Positions 58,401-64,000 of a stretch of DNA of 64,000 nucleotides are shown here, in pieces. The position numbers and the translations under genes are program-made. Below the pieces are notes generated by a model. That model ran no database searches and was not told where the DNA came from. It was given only the letters and a program-made list of their open reading frames with translations. Origin of the DNA: Lycocorax pyrrhopterus obiensis (taxonomy: Eukaryota > Chordata > Aves > Passeriformes > Paradisaeidae); the NCBI GenBank assembly GCA_014706295.1, contig JACSVZ010000022.1, forward strand, positions 12,790,830 through 12,854,829. The letters run 5' to 3'. Positions within the stretch are counted from its first letter, which is position 1. Each line of letters starts with the position of its first letter.

Positions 58401-61400
58401 CGGGGCAGTGCAGCTGCCGGCCCAAGGTGACGGGACTGCGCTGTGACAGCTGCGTGCCTGGCGCCTACGGGTTCCCCCACTGCGAAGGTAGCCCCTTCTC
58501 CCTGATCCCTTGGCACACTCCAGTGTCTTGGGTGCTGGTAAATGCATTTATCATCCCCCAAAAGCTTTGCAAGGGGAGAAATAACCCCAGTTAGGGACGG
58601 CCAAGGGGAGAGCTGACTCTATAAATCTGTTCTTTTACCCCTCTTTTCTAGTGGGCTCCTGTAACCCAGCAGGGTTGGAGACTGCAGATCCCTCTCTGGC
58701 CCTGGTGAGTATTAAATGAAGCCACCACAACCCCTGCAGGTCATTTTTGTGTGATCCCCTTTATCTCATGCTGGATCAGGTCCTTCCTTAAGCTCAGCCC
58801 GAAAGCATCCAGAGCAGCAGACCCCACGTTCAACCACTGTGCTGCAAATTCTCACCTGCTCTTTTCTCCCCCAGGGTTCCTGTGCATGTCTGGCATACGT
58901 TGAAGGCCCAGCTTGTGACAGATGCAAGCCTGGATACTGGAACCTGACTCCAGAGAACCCCTATGGCTGCCTGAGTAAGGAAATGGCATTTGCACAGCCC
59001 ACAAAAGTGGGAGCTTTTTGCTTGGGATGAAACATAGGGCTCATGCAATGAGTTCTGCCATTCTCAGCCCACCCTGCAGACACTTAACTTTTCATGGCCA
59101 AATAGGCAGAAAAGGCAAATGTCTTTGGTAGCTGTGTCCTCAACAGTAGCTGTCCAAAATGGAATGTGAGCCCTTGTGCGGGGCTACCTTCTACTTGACC
59201 AGTTCCTGGCTCCTCTTACCCAACCAGTATCCTCTGGTGTGGTGGGTGCTGACCCCATCAGGCATCTTCTCAGGAGCTGATTGACCTTCTGGCTTTCTTG
59301 TTCATGTCCCTCTCCCCAGGCTGCAAGTGTGACACCAAGGGCACCATCAGCGGAATCTCGGAGTGCCGGCAGGTGGGTTTGCTCCTCTGCTTCCAGGCTC
59401 CTCTGAGCGTGCTGTGTTGGGAGTGTTCAGCTCTGTCTCTCACAGCAGCTGCTGGAGACGCCCTGACGCAGCTCCCAGTGCTTGCACCACAATCTGGGCT
59501 TGCATGAGAATGTGGGATTAAGACCTGTCATAAATTAGGCACCTAAATATTTCTGGGTCTGTCCCAGGATGCCTGGATTTTTGTTTTCCTGCATTGTTGG
59601 GTAATTTAAGTTATCTGGCCCTTATCTGGCCCACCCACACGCAGGAAGCCGTGTGGAGCGTGAAACTCAAAATGCTTCTGCAGTGTCTCAGACCAGAACC
59701 CAAATAACTGAGGAACAGCTTAGCCATGACAAGCAACAGGAGGGAATGAGTTTCCATGCCTGCCTCTCTCGCAGGGCGATGGGCAGTGCTTCTGCAAAGC
59801 CAATGTGTGTGGGCAGTTCTGCTCGGCCTGCAGGGACGGCTTCTTCAACATGGAGAACGCAAATTACTTTGGCTGCCAAGGTGAGCCCCCTTTGTGGTGT
59901 ATCCAGTGAGTGAGGGGGGCCACAGGAACTGACCCCACTGCACAGACTGACTGGTTGGTGACCTTGGAGAGAAGGGGCAAGCGATGTCCCACCTCCTATT
60001 TTGGGTCATCATTTTTGGGGTGATGTGGTTTAGTGCTTTAGGGGTTTCAGTGGTAGTGCTGGGTTGTTGGCTGGAATTTGATGATCTTAAAAGTCTCTTC
60101 CAACCTTGATTCTATGATTCTATACCACAGCCCAGAGCATGGGCTGGGAATTACTGTGGATGTGGAGACCTGAGGTCATGTTTTTCCACTACTGGACACA
60201 GGTCTGTCAGGCTGGGGAGCGAACAGCCGGGTAAGGTACCCCTTTGGGTACCAGAAACTGGTGTTTGAACCACTGGTCACATCCTTGCAGCTGTGCCCCT
60301 TCCTCCTGCTGGGAGAGGGCGGGCATGGATACACGGGGTTGGCCACTCTCCACCATGTCCATGGGAAGAGGTAAAGGAGGAGATCCGGCTGCTCTGAGCC
60401 ATCCCACGCAGTGCTGGCAGGGCTGGGAGGAGGGAGCGAGGCTGTGGCTGGTGGCAGGGCTGCGGCGCCCGGCCGTGAGGGTTTGCAGACCTTGTTCCCT
60501 CAGCCGCCTGGAAATAGCTCGGCGCTGAGGTGGAAGAAGAGTCGATCCAAGTGGGTCCGGGGCCAAATATGAAAACGGATACAATGGAATAAAAATAGTG
60601 GCCCCAGGCTCCCCACCCGCTGGGATGTGCCTTTGATTAGCGACCAGGAGCTCGTTAACACGGCGGGAATGTAAACAGGCGCTTCCTCCCGCAGGCTGCC
60701 GGTGCGACGTCGGCGGGGCGCTGGGGCCGTCCTGCGAGGAGCGGAGCGGAGCCTGTCGCTGCCGGCAGAGCACACGGGGTCCCACCTGCACCCAGTAAGC
60801 TGCACCTTGGCGTGCTCTGCCTCCCACGGTGTCCTCTGCCACCATGGGGATGGGGACCTCGTCGTCCGGGCTGCTGTCGCATCAGCCGCGTGCCCGGCGG
60901 AGGTGTCCTCTTGCCACTCCCTCCGGGTAGCCCAGCAGGTAACGGTGCTCTCTCTTTTCCCCAGACCGGCACAGGACCATTATTTCCCTGACCTTCACCA
61001 CTTGAAGTTCGAGCTGGAGGAAGGCACCACGCCGGCCGGCCGGGCCGTGCGCTTTGGCTACAACCCCCTGGAGTTCGAGGGCTTCAGCTGGCGAGGATAC
61101 GCACAGATGTCCTCCATCCAGGTACACCTGGGGGCTGCAGCCCAGCCCAGCTCCCCCTGGGGAGGACTGATGTACTTTTGGCACACATCTTTCACCCCAA
61201 GTGCTCCTGAAACCCCCAAAGTCACAGGATGGCCAACATAAACAGCACAGTGTATATATAGCCTGTTTGTGCAGATATTTCCTGTAGTGCTGGGGGTGGC
61301 ATAGACTGATGAGGGGAAGGATCCTAAATTGGGAATCCCGTGACATCCTAATCCATTTAGACAAAGGTGGTAGCATGGTGATTACTTACAGGGATGTCTA

Positions 61401-63377
61401 TAAACACTGTCTCTCAGTTTCCTTGTTCCTCTTTCAACTGACTCTGCTCTTTCCTATAACTCTGCATAACCTTTCCTCCCTTTTCCAAAAATAAGTTATC
61501 TCCTCCTCAGCTGCCATGTTCAGCTTGGACTTCTTGTTACCCTTCAGCCTTTGCCCTTGCTGTTAGCTGGTTTGCTGTAACAATGGTTTACACTAACCTG
61601 GAGTTGTGTAAGTCCTAGGAGTGAAGCTGTTTCATCTGTTGACTCTTTTTCTCTCCTTGGTGGTTTCTTCTGCATGGCCCCTGCGGAAGCGTGTGCGTGT
61701 TTGGGGATGGAGTGCAGGGCAGTGATTCTCTGATAGTCTTGTCCCATGTGAGATGCTCCATACTCTGGTGCATGTACTTTCAGTTCTCTTCACATTTTTG
61801 TGCTTAGGTGAAATAACAGAGGGGCTGTCTACTGCTGAATTTTTGGTGGGAGCTAAGCAATGAACTCCTGTAGGATCCCTTGAGAAAATCCCATCCTTAA
61901 AACTTGAGGGTGGAGCTCATAGCTCCAGTGTTACATCCAGTGTTGGTGTTTGAGCTAGAAATAGACCTTGATAGAAGGGCTAGCACGTGGCTTTCTGCTG
62001 GCAGGTCTCACTGTAGTTTGTTATCATCAAAACCCTTCCAGTTTGCTCTCCAGCGGGAAGATGGTGTGTAACTGGAGCTTTGAAGAACACAGCCCTCATT
62101 AGAAGTCTCCTTGGGCAGAGCCCAGCTTTGCCCTATAGGCAGGAGGTTATTTAAGCCTAGATCTCTTTGATTAAGCATCTCCTTAGCCGGGGTCTTGCCA
62201 AGCAGTGTCCAGGCGGGTTGTCTTGGAGTGACTCTATCATGTGTATCTGCTATCATGCTCTATGCCCAAAAAGTAATTTTGTGCCTTTTCTGTGCCTTTA
62301 AACTGAGCTTGAGAAAAAAAAAACACAAAGGACACAGAGAAGGGTGGAGGGCAGATGTGCCATCAGCGGTATGGTCCATTAGCACTGCACATTCCTGAGG
62401 ATGAGGCACCAGCTCAATCCCCAGCCTCTTCTGTAGGCAGTTGGGCAGAGCTCCATAAACACAGGGGCAGGAGTTTGGTACCTGGTGGCTGGTTATGGCA
62501 CACTAAGCCCAAAAGCCGCAACTTCTTATAACCTTTCCCTTGTCGTGGTGTGTGCCCCAGGAGAACTGAACCACCGTGCTGTGCGTCTTCCAGATGTGAT
62601 CACAGCCTTCCCAGCCCCTTCCACAGGCAGGTTGCTCCCTCGGTGTCTGGCCCCAGCAAGGGGACAGTGCCACGAGGTGCCGTGAGCAGCAGGGTCCGTG
62701 TGCTTGTCTCCTCCTTGCGCTGTGGCATGATGCTTTGGGAGCAGTGAGCCGAGCGGCTGCGCTTGGGCTGGCAGTGTGGGTGGTGGAGGTAACTGAAGGT
62801 GTGCTCTGCTTCTCTCCCCTTTCTCTCTCCCACCAGCCCAAGGTAGTGGTGACTCTCAATGTGACCTCCCCCGACCTCTTCCGCCTCGTCTTCCGCTACG
62901 TCAGCCGGGGGCCCGCCAGTGTGGAAGGGAGGGTCTCGGTCGTTGAGGAAGGAAAGTTTAATGTTTGTGGCAACTGTAAGTGCATTTTTCACTTCTAGAC
63001 TAACTCAGAGCATCCCACGCTGCGACACTGCTCCTCTGCCCCTTCTGCCCCAAGGTGTGTCCGTCCCAAGTGTGCCCATCTCAGGTGGCCGGCCAGAGCC
63101 GTGCCGTGGGCTGGCGAGGGAGGGGGAAGAGAGGCAGGCAGGCAGGCAGGTAGGGCAGGCGGGTCAGGCCCTCCCCAGAGCGGGCGGGCGCTCAGGAGCT
63201 GCCCCCCCCAGTGACGTGTGCCCCGTGTGCTCTTTTGCTTTTTGCAGAATAAAATCAGAGTCACTGTAGACGTGAAGGAGGCAGAGCTCTATCTGTTCCA
63301 TGTCATCCTGAGGTATATTAATTCAGGAGGGGCCACTGTGTATGGCAAAATTACAGCTTATCAGCCACGAAGGAGAG
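5418..63377 (+). CDS. LAMA5: LAMA5, laminin subunit alpha-5 (N-terminal part, gene continues past the right edge)
   Basis: Laminin alpha-5 is a very large secreted chain that joins beta and gamma chains into laminin-511/521, major basement-membrane networks. Twenty-two constitutive exons with matching phases give 908 residues, then a choice of exon A or B. Order: signal peptide (about 1-26); LN domain (about 40-295) with WWQSPPL and [12 protein letters not shown], which lets laminins polymerise; LE repeats 1-3 (about 296-468); a 21-residue spacer; LE4-LE11 (about 490-858); then the start of L4b (FSWRGYAQM). Identity as alpha-5 rather than alpha-3 rests on near-identity with what I know of mammalian LAMA5, for example [17 protein letters not shown] in exon 1. 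The remaining domains are outside the window. N-glycosylation sequons are seen at about residues 91, 139, 239, 248, 448, 476, 640 (N-C-S) and 759. The span given includes introns; exons are listed separately. Confidence 0.97.
5703..11440 (+). other. LAMA5: LAMA5 intron 1
   Basis: This 5.7 kb intron separates exons 1 and 2. Its first 330 bases are the tail of the CpG island. A short tandem GCACT/TGCAC run sits near 6949-6966. I see no coding segment, RNA gene or recognisable transposon in the rest. The ends are gtacgg and tttccaccag. Confidence 0.85.
11441..11593 (+). CDS. LAMA5: LAMA5 exon 2 (LN domain core)
   Basis: This exon encodes residues 96-146 and is phase 0 at both ends (acceptor ccaccag, donor CAG|gtaaca). 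It carries [19 protein letters not shown] and the hallmark [13 protein letters not shown] of laminin N-terminal domains, with sequon N139-V-T in NVTLDLGQ. Its flanks are the two longest introns in the window. Confidence 0.97.
14829..14854. repeat. Poly-C(19) followed by A(7) tract
   Basis: A run of 19 cytosines at 14829-14847 is followed by seven adenines in intron 2. The minus strand is therefore an uninterrupted G run. Tracts of this kind are length-unstable and prone to sequencing error. Confidence 0.95.
22184..22198. repeat. Poly-T tract (15)
   Basis: This is a homopolymer T run within intron 2. A second T run lies about 140 bases downstream, near 22334-22346. Neither is followed by an exon. 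Confidence 0.9.
26540..27270. promoter_or_regulatory. Intronic CpG-rich block, possible internal promoter or enhancer
   Basis: By eye, roughly 30 CpGs fall in about 26540-26900, close to the number expected from GC content, while surrounding intron DNA is CpG-depleted. A second CpG cluster lies near 27160-27270. An AAATAAAAA element near 26740 within the block could act as a weak TATA-like box. Overlapping long open frames on both strands (159 and 154 codons) reflect GC richness. No exon of LAMA5 is here, so an alternative promoter or enhancer is inference only. Confidence 0.45.
30125..30505. promoter_or_regulatory. Enhancer-like stretch in intron 2
   Basis: A perfect AP-1 word TGAGTCA lies at 30130-30136, a TCF/LEF-like CTTTGAT at 30181-30187, and a GATA-type TTATCT at 30494-30499, with CAATT words near 30134 and 30270. 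Each motif is common by chance. The cluster is only suggestive, and no conservation data are available. Confidence 0.2.
31394..31428. repeat. (TA)n followed by T(17)
   Basis: A TA dinucleotide microsatellite runs directly into a 17-base T tract, in intron 2. I see no transposon body next to it that would explain it as a retroposon tail. Confidence 0.95.
41935..42052 (+). CDS. LAMA5: LAMA5 exon 3 (LN domain)
   Basis: This exon encodes residues 147-185 and the first base of codon 186 (phase 0 to phase 1). The acceptor is ctttcttt-cag and the donor T|gtgagt. The protein reads [21 protein letters not shown], then [13 protein letters not shown], a strongly conserved beta-strand part of the LN jelly roll. 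It lies after the 30 kb intron 2. Confidence 0.97.
42053..45424 (+). other. LAMA5: LAMA5 intron 3
   Basis: This is a 3.4 kb intron beginning gtgagt and ending gaacag. I see no repeat family, RNA gene or extra exon in it. Confidence 0.85.
45425..45543 (+). CDS. LAMA5: LAMA5 exon 4 (LN domain)
   Basis: This exon completes codon 186 (T+CT, Ser) and runs to residue 225, ending in phase 0 at GAG|gtgagc. It reads [11 protein letters not shown], then [23 protein letters not shown]. The cysteines of RDC and ICTTEYS belong to the LN fold. Confidence 0.97.
45544..45905 (+). other. LAMA5: LAMA5 intron 4
   Basis: This is a 362-base intron. Its last third is a CR1 fragment, listed separately. Its 3' end is a short pyrimidine tract plus cactcacag. 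Confidence 0.93.
45761..45890 (-). mobile_element. CR1 LINE 3'-end fragment in intron 4
   Basis: The + strand reads TCACAGATTCACAGAATGG, then GGTTGGAAGGGACCTT, and further on GCAGGTTGCTCAA and CAGCCTGGCCTT. This is the complement of the 3' end of avian CR1 elements, so the element lies on the minus strand. Similarity fades at about 45890, only some 15 bases before exon 5. Confidence 0.88.
45906..46076 (+). CDS. LAMA5: LAMA5 exon 5 (end of LN domain)
   Basis: This exon encodes residues 226-282 and is phase 0 at both ends (donor AGG|gtaagg). It reads [19 protein letters not shown], then [12 protein letters not shown] and [17 protein letters not shown]. It contains sequons N239-F-S and N248-F-T. 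The match to mammalian LAMA5 is nearly complete. The acceptor borders a CR1 fragment. A 205-codon frame at 45786-46403 is this exon plus read-through of the repeat and intron 5. Confidence 0.97.
46077..46518 (+). other. LAMA5: LAMA5 intron 5
   Basis: This is a 442-base intron, gtaagg to ctctccag. Nothing else is recognised in it. Confidence 0.9.
46519..46616 (+). CDS. LAMA5: LAMA5 exon 6 (LN to LE1 junction)
   Basis: This exon encodes residues 283-314 plus two bases of codon 315 (phase 0 to phase 2; donor AG|gtacct). [14 protein letters not shown] ends the LN domain, and [16 protein letters not shown] starts the first laminin EGF-like repeat. This is the usual boundary seen in all laminin chains. 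Confidence 0.97.
46617..51388 (+). other. LAMA5: LAMA5 intron 6
   Basis: This 4.8 kb intron splits LE1. A 12-base T run lies near 49224-49235. I see no other repeat, RNA gene or coding segment. Confidence 0.85.
51389..51504 (+). CDS. LAMA5: LAMA5 exon 7 (LE1)
   Basis: This exon completes codon 315 (AG+G, Arg) and runs to residue 353 plus one base (phase 2 to phase 1; acceptor ccccgcag, donor C|gtaagt). It reads [20 protein letters not shown], then [13 protein letters not shown]. The eight-cysteine pattern of the first LE repeat is completed here. The double cysteine RCCPG is a known LAMA5 feature. Confidence 0.97.
51505..52381 (+). other. LAMA5: LAMA5 intron 7
   Basis: This is an 877-base intron with gtaagt and cttccag ends. 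No further feature is seen. Confidence 0.9.
52382..52500 (+). CDS. LAMA5: LAMA5 exon 8 (LE2, first part)
   Basis: This exon completes codon 354 (C+CC, Pro) and runs to residue 393, phase 1 to phase 0 (donor CAG|gtaggc). It reads [18 protein letters not shown], then [10 protein letters not shown]. The long loop between the first cysteines (about 25 residues) is typical of LE2 in laminin alpha chains. Confidence 0.97.
52501..53280 (+). other. LAMA5: LAMA5 intron 8
   Basis: This is a 780-base intron, gtaggc to gtctttcag. No repeat or extra exon is recognised. Confidence 0.9.
53281..53371 (+). CDS. LAMA5: LAMA5 exon 9 (LE2, second part)
   Basis: This exon encodes residues 394-423 plus one base (phase 0 to 1; donor C|gtgagt). 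It reads [20 protein letters not shown], then SPYIC, completing LE2. The following intron 9 is only 134 bases. Confidence 0.97.
53506..53640 (+). CDS. LAMA5: LAMA5 exon 10 (LE3)
   Basis: This is a phase 1-1 exon encoding residues 424-468, one complete LE repeat. It reads [19 protein letters not shown], then [18 protein letters not shown], with sequon N448-Y-T. Its 135-base length keeps the frame if skipped. Confidence 0.97.
53641..54070 (+). other. LAMA5: LAMA5 intron 10
   Basis: This is a 430-base intron, gtaagt to ctgcacag. Nothing else is recognised. Minus-strand frames across it are shadows. Confidence 0.9.
54071..54133 (+). CDS. LAMA5: LAMA5 exon 11 (non-LE spacer)
   Basis: This 63-base phase 1-1 exon encodes residues 469-489, [20 protein letters not shown]. 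It has no cysteine and carries sequon N476-N-T. Mammalian LAMA5 has an equivalent spacer ending in [11 protein letters not shown] between LE3 and LE4, so it is genuine despite its size. The donor is A|gtaagc. Confidence 0.94.
54134..55294 (+). other. LAMA5: LAMA5 intron 11
   Basis: This 1.2 kb intron contains a long pyrimidine-rich C/T tract at about 54530-54800. It makes several overlapping low-complexity open frames but shows no gene. Confidence 0.88.
55295..55435 (+). CDS. LAMA5: LAMA5 exon 12 (LE4)
   Basis: This is a phase 1-1 exon of 141 bases encoding residues 490-536: [20 protein letters not shown], then [20 protein letters not shown]. It is one whole LE repeat, close to the mammalian sequence. 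Confidence 0.97.
55436..55802 (+). other. LAMA5: LAMA5 intron 12
   Basis: This is a 367-base intron, gtgagt to ctttgcag, with no further feature recognised. Confidence 0.9.
55803..55940 (+). CDS. LAMA5: LAMA5 exon 13 (LE5)
   Basis: This is a phase 1-1 exon of 138 bases encoding residues 537-582: [20 protein letters not shown], then [19 protein letters not shown]. It is one LE repeat with the regular eight cysteines. The donor is T|gtaagt. Confidence 0.97.
56183..56317 (+). CDS. LAMA5: LAMA5 exon 14 (LE6)
   Basis: This is a phase 1-1 exon of 135 bases encoding residues 583-627. The first codon is T+TG (Leu), then [19 protein letters not shown] and [19 protein letters not shown]. It is one LE repeat. 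The donor is G|gtaagc. Confidence 0.97.
56318..56781 (+). other. LAMA5: LAMA5 intron 14
   Basis: This is a 464-base intron, gtaagc to tcttacag. No repeat family is recognised. Confidence 0.9.
56782..56916 (+). CDS. LAMA5: LAMA5 exon 15 (LE7)
   Basis: This is a phase 1-1 exon of 135 bases encoding residues 628-672: [20 protein letters not shown], then [19 protein letters not shown]. It has the rare N-C-S type sequon at N640. It is one LE repeat. The donor is C|gtgagt. Confidence 0.97.
56917..58349 (+). other. LAMA5: LAMA5 intron 15
   Basis: This 1.4 kb intron starts with a CR1 insertion, listed separately. The remainder has short T runs (about 57645-57656 and 57738-57745) and nothing else I recognise. 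Confidence 0.88.
56945..57260 (+). mobile_element. CR1 LINE 3'-end fragment in intron 15
   Basis: About 315 bases match the 3' end of avian CR1 in sense orientation. Landmarks are GGTTGGTCTCTTCTCCCAAG, GGAGGTTTAGGTTGG, GGCTGCCCAGGGCAGTGG, GGACATGGTTTAGTGG and the terminal GGTCTTTTCCAACCTTAATG. The 5' end is truncated, as is usual for CR1, so no reverse transcriptase sequence is present. It starts only about 30 bases after the donor of exon 15. Confidence 0.95.
58350..58487 (+). CDS. LAMA5: LAMA5 exon 16 (LE8)
   Basis: This is a phase 1-1 exon of 138 bases encoding residues 673-718: [20 protein letters not shown], then [20 protein letters not shown]. It is one LE repeat. The donor G|gtagcc lacks the consensus G at +5 and is the weakest-looking donor in the window, but the next exon joins in the right phase and matches mammalian LAMA5. 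Confidence 0.95.
58652..58704 (+). CDS. LAMA5: LAMA5 exon 17 (LE9, first part)
   Basis: This small 53-base exon (phase 1 to 0) encodes residues 719-736: [18 protein letters not shown]. The mammalian equivalent is GSCHPAGL. Acceptor ttttctag, donor CTG|gtgagt. Confidence 0.93.
58875..58974 (+). CDS. LAMA5: LAMA5 exon 18 (LE9, second part)
   Basis: This exon encodes residues 737-769 plus one base (phase 0 to 1): [20 protein letters not shown], then [12 protein letters not shown], with sequon N759-L-T. It completes LE9. The donor is A|gtaagg. Confidence 0.97.
58975..59319 (+). other. LAMA5: LAMA5 intron 18
   Basis: This is a 345-base intron, gtaagg to tccccag, with no other feature seen. Confidence 0.9.
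59320..59372 (+). CDS. LAMA5: LAMA5 exon 19 (LE10, first part)
   Basis: This 53-base exon (phase 1 to 0) encodes residues 770-787: [18 protein letters not shown]. It has the same size and phases as exon 17, so LE9 and LE10 share one intron position. This suggests they arose as a duplicated two-exon unit. The donor is CAG|gtgggt. Confidence 0.95.
59373..59774 (+). other. LAMA5: LAMA5 intron 19
   Basis: This is a 402-base intron, gtgggt to tctcgcag. Nothing else is recognised. Confidence 0.9.
59775..59880 (+). CDS. LAMA5: LAMA5 exon 20 (LE10, second part)
   Basis: This exon encodes residues 788-822 plus one base (phase 0 to 1): [20 protein letters not shown], then [14 protein letters not shown]. 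It matches the mammalian KPHVCGQ region with the extra cysteine typical of this LE. The donor is G|gtgagc. Confidence 0.97.
59881..60694 (+). other. LAMA5: LAMA5 intron 20
   Basis: This is an 814-base intron holding a CR1 3' tail, listed separately. Its last 300 bases are CpG-rich and continue into exon 21. Confidence 0.9.
60017..60124 (+). mobile_element. CR1 LINE 3' tail in intron 20
   Basis: Landmarks are GGGGTGATGTGGTTTAGTG, GTGCTGGGTTGTTGGCTGG, TTTGATGATCTTAAAAGTC, CTTCCAACC and the terminal GATTCTATGATTCTAT repeat. That octamer-like tail is diagnostic of the CR1 3' end. Sense orientation, strongly 5'-truncated. Confidence 0.93.
60695..60794 (+). CDS. LAMA5: LAMA5 exon 21 (LE11)
   Basis: This exon encodes residues 823-855 (phase 1 to 2): [20 protein letters not shown], then [14 protein letters not shown]. 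It is the last, shortened LE repeat before L4b. Acceptor ctcccgcag, donor CA|gtaagc. It is much richer in CpG than neighbouring exons. Confidence 0.96.
60965..61121 (+). CDS. LAMA5: LAMA5 exon 22 (start of L4b domain)
   Basis: This exon completes codon 855 (CA+A, Gln) and runs to residue 908, ending in phase 0: [20 protein letters not shown], then [20 protein letters not shown]. This is the conserved opening of the globular IVb (L4b) domain of alpha-5 and alpha-3B chains. The donor CAG|gtacac lacks G at +5, a suboptimal site just before the alternative exon pair. Confidence 0.96.
61122..62836 (+). other. LAMA5: LAMA5 intron 22
   Basis: This 1.7 kb intron lies upstream of the alternative exon pair. 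An A run lies near 62312-62322. The 3' end has a strong pyrimidine tract from about 62804. No further exon is recognised. Confidence 0.88.
62837..62975 (+). CDS. LAMA5: LAMA5 exon 23A (L4b domain, mammalian-like alternative exon)
   Basis: This 139-base exon (phase 0 to 1; acceptor cccaccag, donor AACT|gtaagt) encodes residues 909-954: [20 protein letters not shown], then [15 protein letters not shown] and [10 protein letters not shown]. It aligns well with the segment I recall in mammalian LAMA5 (TSPDLFWLVFRYVNRG). It contains sequon N916-V-T and a cysteine close to the split codon T.., which would restore a C-x-x-C pair if that codon is Cys. Third-position GC is about 74%, like its neighbours. 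It appears to be mutually exclusive with exon 23B. Confidence 0.93.
62976..63247 (+). other. LAMA5: Intron between alternative exons 23A and 23B
   Basis: This is a 272-base spacer, gtaagt to ctttttgcag. It contains a (GGCA)n repeat and several GGG triplets, followed by a C-run near 63201. If 23A is retained unspliced, a stop arises at 62996. Confidence 0.85.
63133..63165. repeat. (GGCA)n tetranucleotide repeat with G-rich flank
   Basis: Nearly five GGCA units at 63133-63150 are followed by GGTAGGGCAGGCGGG, inside the short intron between alternative exons 23A and 23B. G triplets in this position are potential binding sites for hnRNP F/H-type splicing factors; that role is inference. Confidence 0.85.
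63248..63377 (+). CDS. LAMA5: LAMA5 exon 23B (L4b domain, second alternative exon)
   Basis: This 130-base exon (phase 0 to 1; acceptor ctttttgcag, donor GAG|gtaagg) encodes 43 residues: [20 protein letters not shown], then [18 protein letters not shown] and QPRRR. It aligns over its length with exon 23A (about 12 of 41 identical with a two-residue gap: K-x-x-V-T, V, L, RY, G, A, V, G) and has the same phases. It lacks the sequon and cysteine of 23A, and its third-position GC is about 47%. Splicing 22 to 23B is in frame; splicing 23A to 23B gives TAA TAA. The RYINSG wording reminds me of the equivalent part of laminin alpha-3B, so it may be the older form. It could instead be a rarely used exon, but an intact frame and sites argue against a relic. 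Confidence 0.85.
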
Positions 63378-64000
63378 GTAAGGATCCCAGACTGCTCTGC
63401 TTCCCTGTGCCATCGCCACCTCCTCCCCATTCCAGGCAACCTTCTGCATCATCCTTTCCAGAAGACGCTTCCATATGGCTTTACCCATTAGTCCTGCCCT
63501 CCCAGTTGAAAGGCTGATTTGAGTTTGCAGCCCCCTTTATTTACCAGAGCAGCAGCAAGGTGGGCCCAGCCCCGGGGCTGCTCCCTGAGGACTGATACCA
63601 GCCAGGCTGGTGGGAGATAAGGCTGTTGTACAATTCCGTACAACCTTTCCAGCACGGGACAAAATCACCCCAGTGCCCCAGGCAAAACTGCGCTGACTTT
63701 CCACAAATCCAGAATGGGCCAAGAGCTGGGAAGTGGATCCAAACTTTGGCAGCTGGATGTGGCTTTATTTAGCAGATGCCCTGACGTGGCAGTCCTGCCT
63801 TTTCCGTGTGCTTCTCCCAAACCAGGCTGCTGGCTTCACACGTGGTGTGGGGCTTGGAAGTGCCATGGAATTACACGTTACACAGGCTTTGCACTCTGGT
63901 GCAGTGTCCCCTCAGCAAGCCACGAGCTGCTGGACAAGAGCCACCAAAAGATGTCTGAACAAGCCTAGAAACCTGGACAGCAAATATTCTGGGAAACAAT
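63378..64000 (+). other. LAMA5: Start of next LAMA5 intron, runs off the window
   Basis: The sequence begins gtaagg and reaches the window edge. The next exon, which should begin in phase 1 and continue L4b, is not present: no frame here resembles the expected PAFITVPQ-type continuation. Nothing else is recognised. Confidence 0.88.

Follow-up and report, generated by a model that had tools for sequence, protein, structure and literature searches.

A 64,000-nucleotide stretch of the genome of Lycocorax pyrrhopterus obiensis (contig JACSVZ010000022.1; hereafter the window) carries the laminin alpha-5 gene, LAMA5, on its + strand. Two adjacent exons of this gene, 23A and 23B, very probably form a tandem mutually exclusive pair. 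Mutually exclusive use is supported by the reading frame, which locks out other combinations, by a pair of isoforms in Calypte anna, by 21 LAMA5 proteins carrying the B version in place of the A version, and by one transcript-like protein (P0057). It is proposed that the spliceosome links exon 22 either to 23A or to 23B, and that either one continues in frame into the next exon. Each exon would code for the same three successive strands of a beta-sandwich (CBM35-type, LF-like) that is part of the first insert of the alpha5 short arm. Inclusion of both exons or of neither would lead to a stop or a frameshift and to loss of the transcript, and the choice would yield two alpha5 laminins differing solely in this part of one domain. 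Form A would supply two cysteines and two N-glycosylation sequons, and form B would be without both. We infer that the choice between 23A and 23B is regulated and that the swap affects the surface of the domain.

Exon structure and probable exclusive use

The gene was first named LAMA5 in an initial annotation of the window, and this assignment was borne out. Seventeen exon pieces had a mean identity of 96.5% to laminin alpha-5 of Corvus, versus 53.5% and 50.8% to two LAMA3 proteins. The other 20 bird proteins tried were all below Corvus; the minimum (44%) was obtained with Limosa, whose LAMA5 is a shorter protein in which exon 22 ends at residue 159 and much of the N-terminal part is missing. 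Judged by these identities, the gene on the + strand is LAMA5.

The two exons were also described as homologous versions of one segment, and the comparisons agree. The local BLOSUM62 score between their translations is 61, from an alignment of about 38 residues that includes a two-residue gap. None of 5000 shuffles of 23B attained this score (shuffle maximum, 45), and a profile-profile match of 23A (18 rows) with 23B (16 rows) gave a probability of 96.65% and an E-value of 4.8e-10. The swap replaces some 45 residues, and the two versions are about 30% identical. Joined to the next exon as in Calypte, 23A contributes a CGNC motif and a pair of N-glycosylation sequons (NVT, and NCT spanning the junction). 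Exon 23B encodes no cysteine and no sequon, and its first loop is two residues longer than that of A. The third-position GC content of 23B (0.47) is well below that of 23A (0.74) and exon 22 (0.81).

Table 1. Features of the LAMA5 exon pair and its surroundings in the window; exons are numbered as in the initial annotation.
Feature	Position	Strand	Remarks
Exon 22 of LAMA5	60965..61121	+	Constitutive upstream partner; end phase 0 (CAG|gtacac); bird LAMA5 proteins match at 92-100%
23A acceptor stretch	62826..62838	+	Perfect 13-nt reverse complement at 63605-63617; RNA pairing speculative
Exon 23A	62837..62975	+	139 nt; cccaccag|CCC ... AACT|gtaagt; phase 0 in, phase 1 out; supplies T of split codon
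Intron between 23A and 23B	62976..63247	+	272 nt; GT-AG; AG-exclusion zone before 23B of 36 nt
Exon 23B	63248..63377	+	130 nt; tttttgcag|AAT ... AGAG|gtaagg; phase 0 in, phase 1 out; supplies G of split codon; LAMA3-like version
Reverse complement of 23A acceptor	63605..63617	+	Downstream of 23B; speculative

The coordinates, lengths and phases of both exons were reproduced base for base (Table 1). Each exon alone fits, with equal entry and exit phases and GT-AG borders on both. Scripted translation of the window confirmed that the 22-23A-23B join is unproductive: the split codon becomes T+AA, and the product reads CGN, an immediate TAA TAA, and NQ. When both exons are skipped, exon 22 (phase 0) meets a next exon that requires a single base from either 23A or 23B, and the frame shifts as had been claimed; this next exon lies beyond the window, and its phase was deduced from the proteins of relatives (C then TEQ after A, G then TEQ after B). 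Transcripts with both exons or with neither would be lost, probably through nonsense-mediated decay.

Both versions were looked for in vertebrate proteins. A first search of a database clustered at 90% identity gave 83 proteins, which were typed A or B by best local match: 51 held A only, 22 held B only (21 LAMA5 and one LAMA3), and 10 held both. Sources of the 21 B-only LAMA5 proteins include birds, turtles, alligator, lizards and axolotl. Clean joins of exon 22, 23B and the next exon were found in 13 of them. Among the remaining eight, P0023 has two extra residues, P0040 is without exon 22, and in six (P0049, P0054, P0060, P0061, P0065 and P0076) 23B starts or ends at a shifted position, which is often an outcome of gene prediction. 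P0040 (Anser cygnoides LAMA5 isoform X4) begins about five residues before 23B, and a promoter near 23B or a truncated model may exist. At the protein level, both versions are present in birds, turtles, lizards, salamanders and teleosts, and B alone in alligator. The search across birds, reptiles, amphibians and fish had been proposed in the initial annotation, and these groups appear to share the pair.

Three observations bear on the use of 23B. Isoforms X1 (P0018, 3694 residues) and X3 (P0027, 3691 residues) of Calypte anna LAMA5 differ solely in a segment of 47 versus 44 residues from residue 910. The 43 residues of 23B are identical (43/43) in the window, Anser, Calypte, Athene and Limosa; absence of such conservation in other birds had been named as grounds for giving up the pair. 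Protein P0057 comprises 2915 residues, is collinear with Anolis LAMA5 (81.7% identity, four gap positions) and reads from exon 22 through 23B into the next exon. The longest sequence of its source has 12,196 bases. We take P0057 to derive from a spliced sequence, because DNA with introns could hardly yield such collinearity; it would then be a transcript-like protein supporting the 22-23B-next exon join. Together with TAA TAA at the double join, the Calypte swap, the 21 B-form LAMA5 proteins and P0057 support the claim that the frame forces one-or-the-other splicing.

An old dead duplicate, or a cryptic open exon picked up by predictors, with 23A alone in mRNA, would account for the fact that much of the evidence for 23B is predicted protein, for five bird models that hold 23B only alongside residues of neither exon, and for the six models with shifted 23B borders. 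A dead exon would hardly keep all 43 residues identical in goose, hummingbird, owl, shorebird and the window, and 23B also has usual splice sites and a fitting phase. The isoform pair of Calypte differs exactly there, and P0057 carries the 22-23B-next exon join. On the strength of the conservation and the exact isoform pair, we rejected this explanation as extremely improbable.

The ten models holding both segments bear on a second alternative, under which 23B is a plain cassette exon and certain lineages, teleosts for example, can splice it in together with 23A. The exact 23A-23B junction is used by none of the ten. In five birds, A is linked to B through residues from neither exon, presumably intron. 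In five teleosts (P0044, P0055, P0066, P0075 and P0083), both segments stand in one frame, as a cassette exon would allow, but A and B are joined at shifted points, and in four of the five B begins beyond the point where the tetrapod form has its first one or two residues. Such late entry, read from the proteins, fits a predictor avoiding the stop, for example at an AG a few bases into 23B. Models of gar, tarpon and conger (X1) contain 23A alone, and double inclusion in the window is halted at once by TAA TAA. We regard a cassette exon as very unlikely.

Two points count against mutually exclusive splicing of the pair. Nearly all B-form proteins are gene predictions, and isoform numbers are no proof of abundance; the single-inclusion forms were seen as annotated isoforms (A and B) and, for B, as the one transcript-like protein. 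In addition, no steric cause of exclusivity was found in the 272-nt intron with its short 36-nt AG-exclusion zone, and enforcement therefore rests on the frame.

Domain and fold of the swapped segment

The exon pair had been placed in domain L4b, and this label has to be dropped. The only Laminin_B/L4 match in P0018 lies at residues 1685-1821, and the exon lies at residue 910. No Laminin_B (PF00052) match covers the exon, and in Pfam the module of either isoform gives none. According to the available text of one paper, the first insert of alpha3 and alpha5 is not an L4 domain, and its first 200 residues or so are weakly LF-like (PMC5338690, Pulido et al.). The pair is in this LF-like part of the alpha3/alpha5 insert.

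No Pfam model matched the module above cut-off (one match of the B form, at E 0.14, was below it), and no solved relatives were detected by sequence, all five matches having E-values above 0.3. The predicted models of the two forms share three strands (A, residues 50-57, 61-71 and 77-85; B, residues 50-57, 64-73 and 79-86), and the module is modeled as a CBM35-type beta-sandwich. For the A-isoform module, Foldseek ranked the LF domain of laminin beta2 (5lf2) at the top (E 2.3e-4), but its identity to the module is 16-22% and the TM-score 0.45.

Some results weaken this assignment. The confidence of the fold models is middling, with means of the predicted local distance difference test (pLDDT) of 60.7 and 62.1; averaged by block, the values run from 65 to 86 in the A exon, with residues 90-94 below 50, and from 70 to 87 in the B exon. 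The LF match is not distinctive, as CBM61, CBM35 and other jelly-roll chains score nearly equal, and 5lf2 was not among the best 50 matches listed for the B model (VIA-align).

Residues 1029-1440 of P0018 show, by eye, repeats resembling the strand pattern of exon 23 (e.g., GKYVLVVEYAN and GRYAFILHYYQ), which suggests that the fold recurs in additional modules. These residues are covered by no Pfam model.

LAMA3, mammals and the age of the pair

A search with gecko LAMA3 as query found 702 proteins, of which 120 were listed and 116 of these were new. An earlier typing of LAMA3 had included one LAMA3-type B reference, which favours a B call; typing was therefore repeated against the 23A and 23B exons of the window alone. 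Among the matches listed, the LAMA3 segment was nearer to 23B than to 23A in all 117 proteins (116 new and the query), in 116 of them by at least 20 score units; the weakest B typing was that of parrot P0190 (87 vs. 96). The listed proteins span mammals, birds, turtles, squamates, amphibians, coelacanth and lungfish. The segment of LAMA3 (alpha3B) thus resembles 23B and occupies the same site in the same LF-like insert. It differs from the LAMA5 pair in that no A-type copy was found among the 117 listed proteins, and the version appears fixed rather than chosen.

Several LAMA3 models show peculiarities at this site. Parrot P0172, P0173 and P0190 are without the two loop residues that otherwise mark B and LAMA3 off from A. 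In ten bird models (P0164, P0167, P0176, P0182, P0183, P0187, P0188, P0191, P0197 and P0199), the B-like exon stops about seven residues early and reads SAW-AAQ instead of forms like SACQSRPETGAAQ, which suggests either an alternative donor or a mispredicted one. In alligator, a protein annotated as laminin subunit alpha-2 isoform B (P0115) has LAMA3-type sequence at the exon and appears to be misnamed.

The initial annotation knew mammalian LAMA5 protein only in the 23A form, and the search agrees: mammalian or mammal-like LAMA5 was A only in 9/9 cases among the 83 proteins (echidna, aardvark, hedgehog, flying fox, rhinoceros, ground squirrel, blind mole rat, jerboa and P0064), with the limit that clustering at 90% identity could conceal a mammalian B isoform. 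A second protein search (24 proteins of 26 candidates, all sauropsid and none new) contained no mammals. This says little, because the known B forms of teleosts and axolotl and P0057 were missed as well. Loss of B from mammalian LAMA5 is a lead, not a result.

The age of the pair was approached through rates and a tree. Mean exon differences were 0.70 for A-B, 0.715 for A-LAMA3 and 0.51 for B-LAMA3; flank differences between LAMA5 and LAMA3 were 0.37-0.39, and tetrapod-fish differences were 0.415 for A and 0.452 for B. A and B evolve at like rates, yet the A-B gap exceeds both the LAMA5-LAMA3 difference of the flanks and the B-LAMA3 difference of the exon, which favours a pair older than the split of the two genes. 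The tree (48 rows, 49 columns, midpoint root, no outgroup) separates all A from B plus LAMA3 with support of 100/100 by a branch of about 2.1 changes per column. LAMA3 forms one group (100/98) among the B rows, beside axolotl B (97/88), with a stem of about 0.58. Since the tree has no outgroup, the sequence of events is judged from the rates. The matches listed in the LAMA3 search included no invertebrate, shark or lamprey, and viral contigs tried as a source of an outgroup gave 12 pattern matches, none of them a relative.

The duplication may instead have occurred within LAMA5 after LAMA3 had split off, with 23A changing fast afterwards. This is compatible with an unrooted tree of three groups, and, LAMA3 being B-like, B may have come first and A later. 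Rapid change is at odds with the comparison of tetrapods and fish, in which A is no faster than B (0.415 vs. 0.452) while A-B stands at 0.70 and B-LAMA3 at 0.51, and with a separating branch several times as long as the LAMA3 stem (about 2.1 vs. 0.58). We regard a duplication confined to LAMA5 as rather unlikely and consider, with fair but limited confidence drawn from these sequence comparisons, that the 23A/23B pair is older than the LAMA3/LAMA5 split. The older origin has evidence to contend with: LAMA3 stands beside axolotl B inside the B group, not beside all B, which is not species history; 20 of the 45 inner branches are open, and inner forks are unreliable with 49 columns; and fast change of A after a duplication in LAMA5 only would fit too.

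Based on these comparisons, we lean slightly towards a fuller history in which a single ancestral alpha3/5 gene held the pair, LAMA3 fixed B, LAMA5 kept both, and mammalian LAMA5 lost B, so that mammals would divide the choice between two genes.

Exon choice and relation to known systems

One candidate for the selection of 23B is RNA pairing, in which the 13-nt complement downstream of 23B would mask the acceptor of 23A. The perfect complement spans the acceptor, and none of 300 dinucleotide shuffles attained 13 nt at this site; the remaining three splice sites are unremarkable (equalled by 54, 289 and 201 of 300 shuffles). The finding comes from four sites in a single genome. Folding of 62780-63650 was no better than that of shuffles (z +0.50; 15 of 20 shuffles did as well), and the minimum-energy fold puts the acceptor in other pairing. 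We consider pairing as the selector unlikely. No Rfam match was found in the window.

A possible branch-point or QKI-type word, ACTAAC, occurs at 62999-63004, 24 nt into the intron after 23A and near its donor, a position that a distant branch point would be expected to take. A distant branch point or steric enforcement of exclusivity was considered and found little support, given the 272-nt intron, the 36-nt AG-exclusion zone and an AG right after ACTAAC. As described in the available text of PMC7969005, exons 4a and 4b of OGDH are kept mutually exclusive by distant branch points. The OGDH exons are likewise vertebrate exclusive exons with one intron between them, and the LAMA5 pair also has ACTAAC near the donor of that intron. 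The two systems differ in that the AG-exclusion zone in LAMA5 is only 36 nt and an AG directly follows ACTAAC, features that make a distant branch point less likely.

Tandem exons of the mutually exclusive type are well established, and the LAMA5 pair already appears in automatic annotation. The initial annotation knew of no description of the second exon. This stands for the literature, in which our search found no description of the LAMA5 23A/23B pair; it does not stand for automatic pipelines, which already annotate the B form. The words laminin and LAMA are absent from the main text of two human surveys of tandem exons (PMC5740500 and PMC9741552; their supplements were outside the search). 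In the available text of two laminin reviews, splicing is mentioned for alpha3A/3B and LaNt only. An rMATS event of the mutually exclusive exon (MXE) class is reported for human LAMA5 in the accessible part of PMC11652373, where the exons concerned are unnamed. LAMA5 in the available text of PMC11670804 and PMC12309053 does not concern this exon. New here are the B-like character of the LAMA3 segment and a probable origin of the pair before LAMA3 and LAMA5 separated.

Laminin LF and L4 domains are described, in the available text of PMC5338690, as having no assigned function, and a clean excision is hard to design. A deeply conserved natural swap of three strands would be a ready-made probe of the role of the LF-like domain, and any difference between the two forms in tissue, binding or polymer properties would point to the job of the domain. 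The pair also provides a testable case of an alternative exon turned into the fixed form of a paralogue, and a warning that mammalian alpha5 may be without an isoform used by other vertebrates. If the proposed history is true, the LF-like domain has two ancient, separately conserved states, and birds, reptiles, amphibians and fish still choose by splicing within LAMA5 what mammals have split over two genes.

The LAMA5 pair shares with vertebrate tandem mutually exclusive exons the adjacent homologous exons, the same phases, an unproductive double inclusion, and age and conservation. It differs from them in that the second exon was not seen in mammalian LAMA5, so human surveys could miss it.

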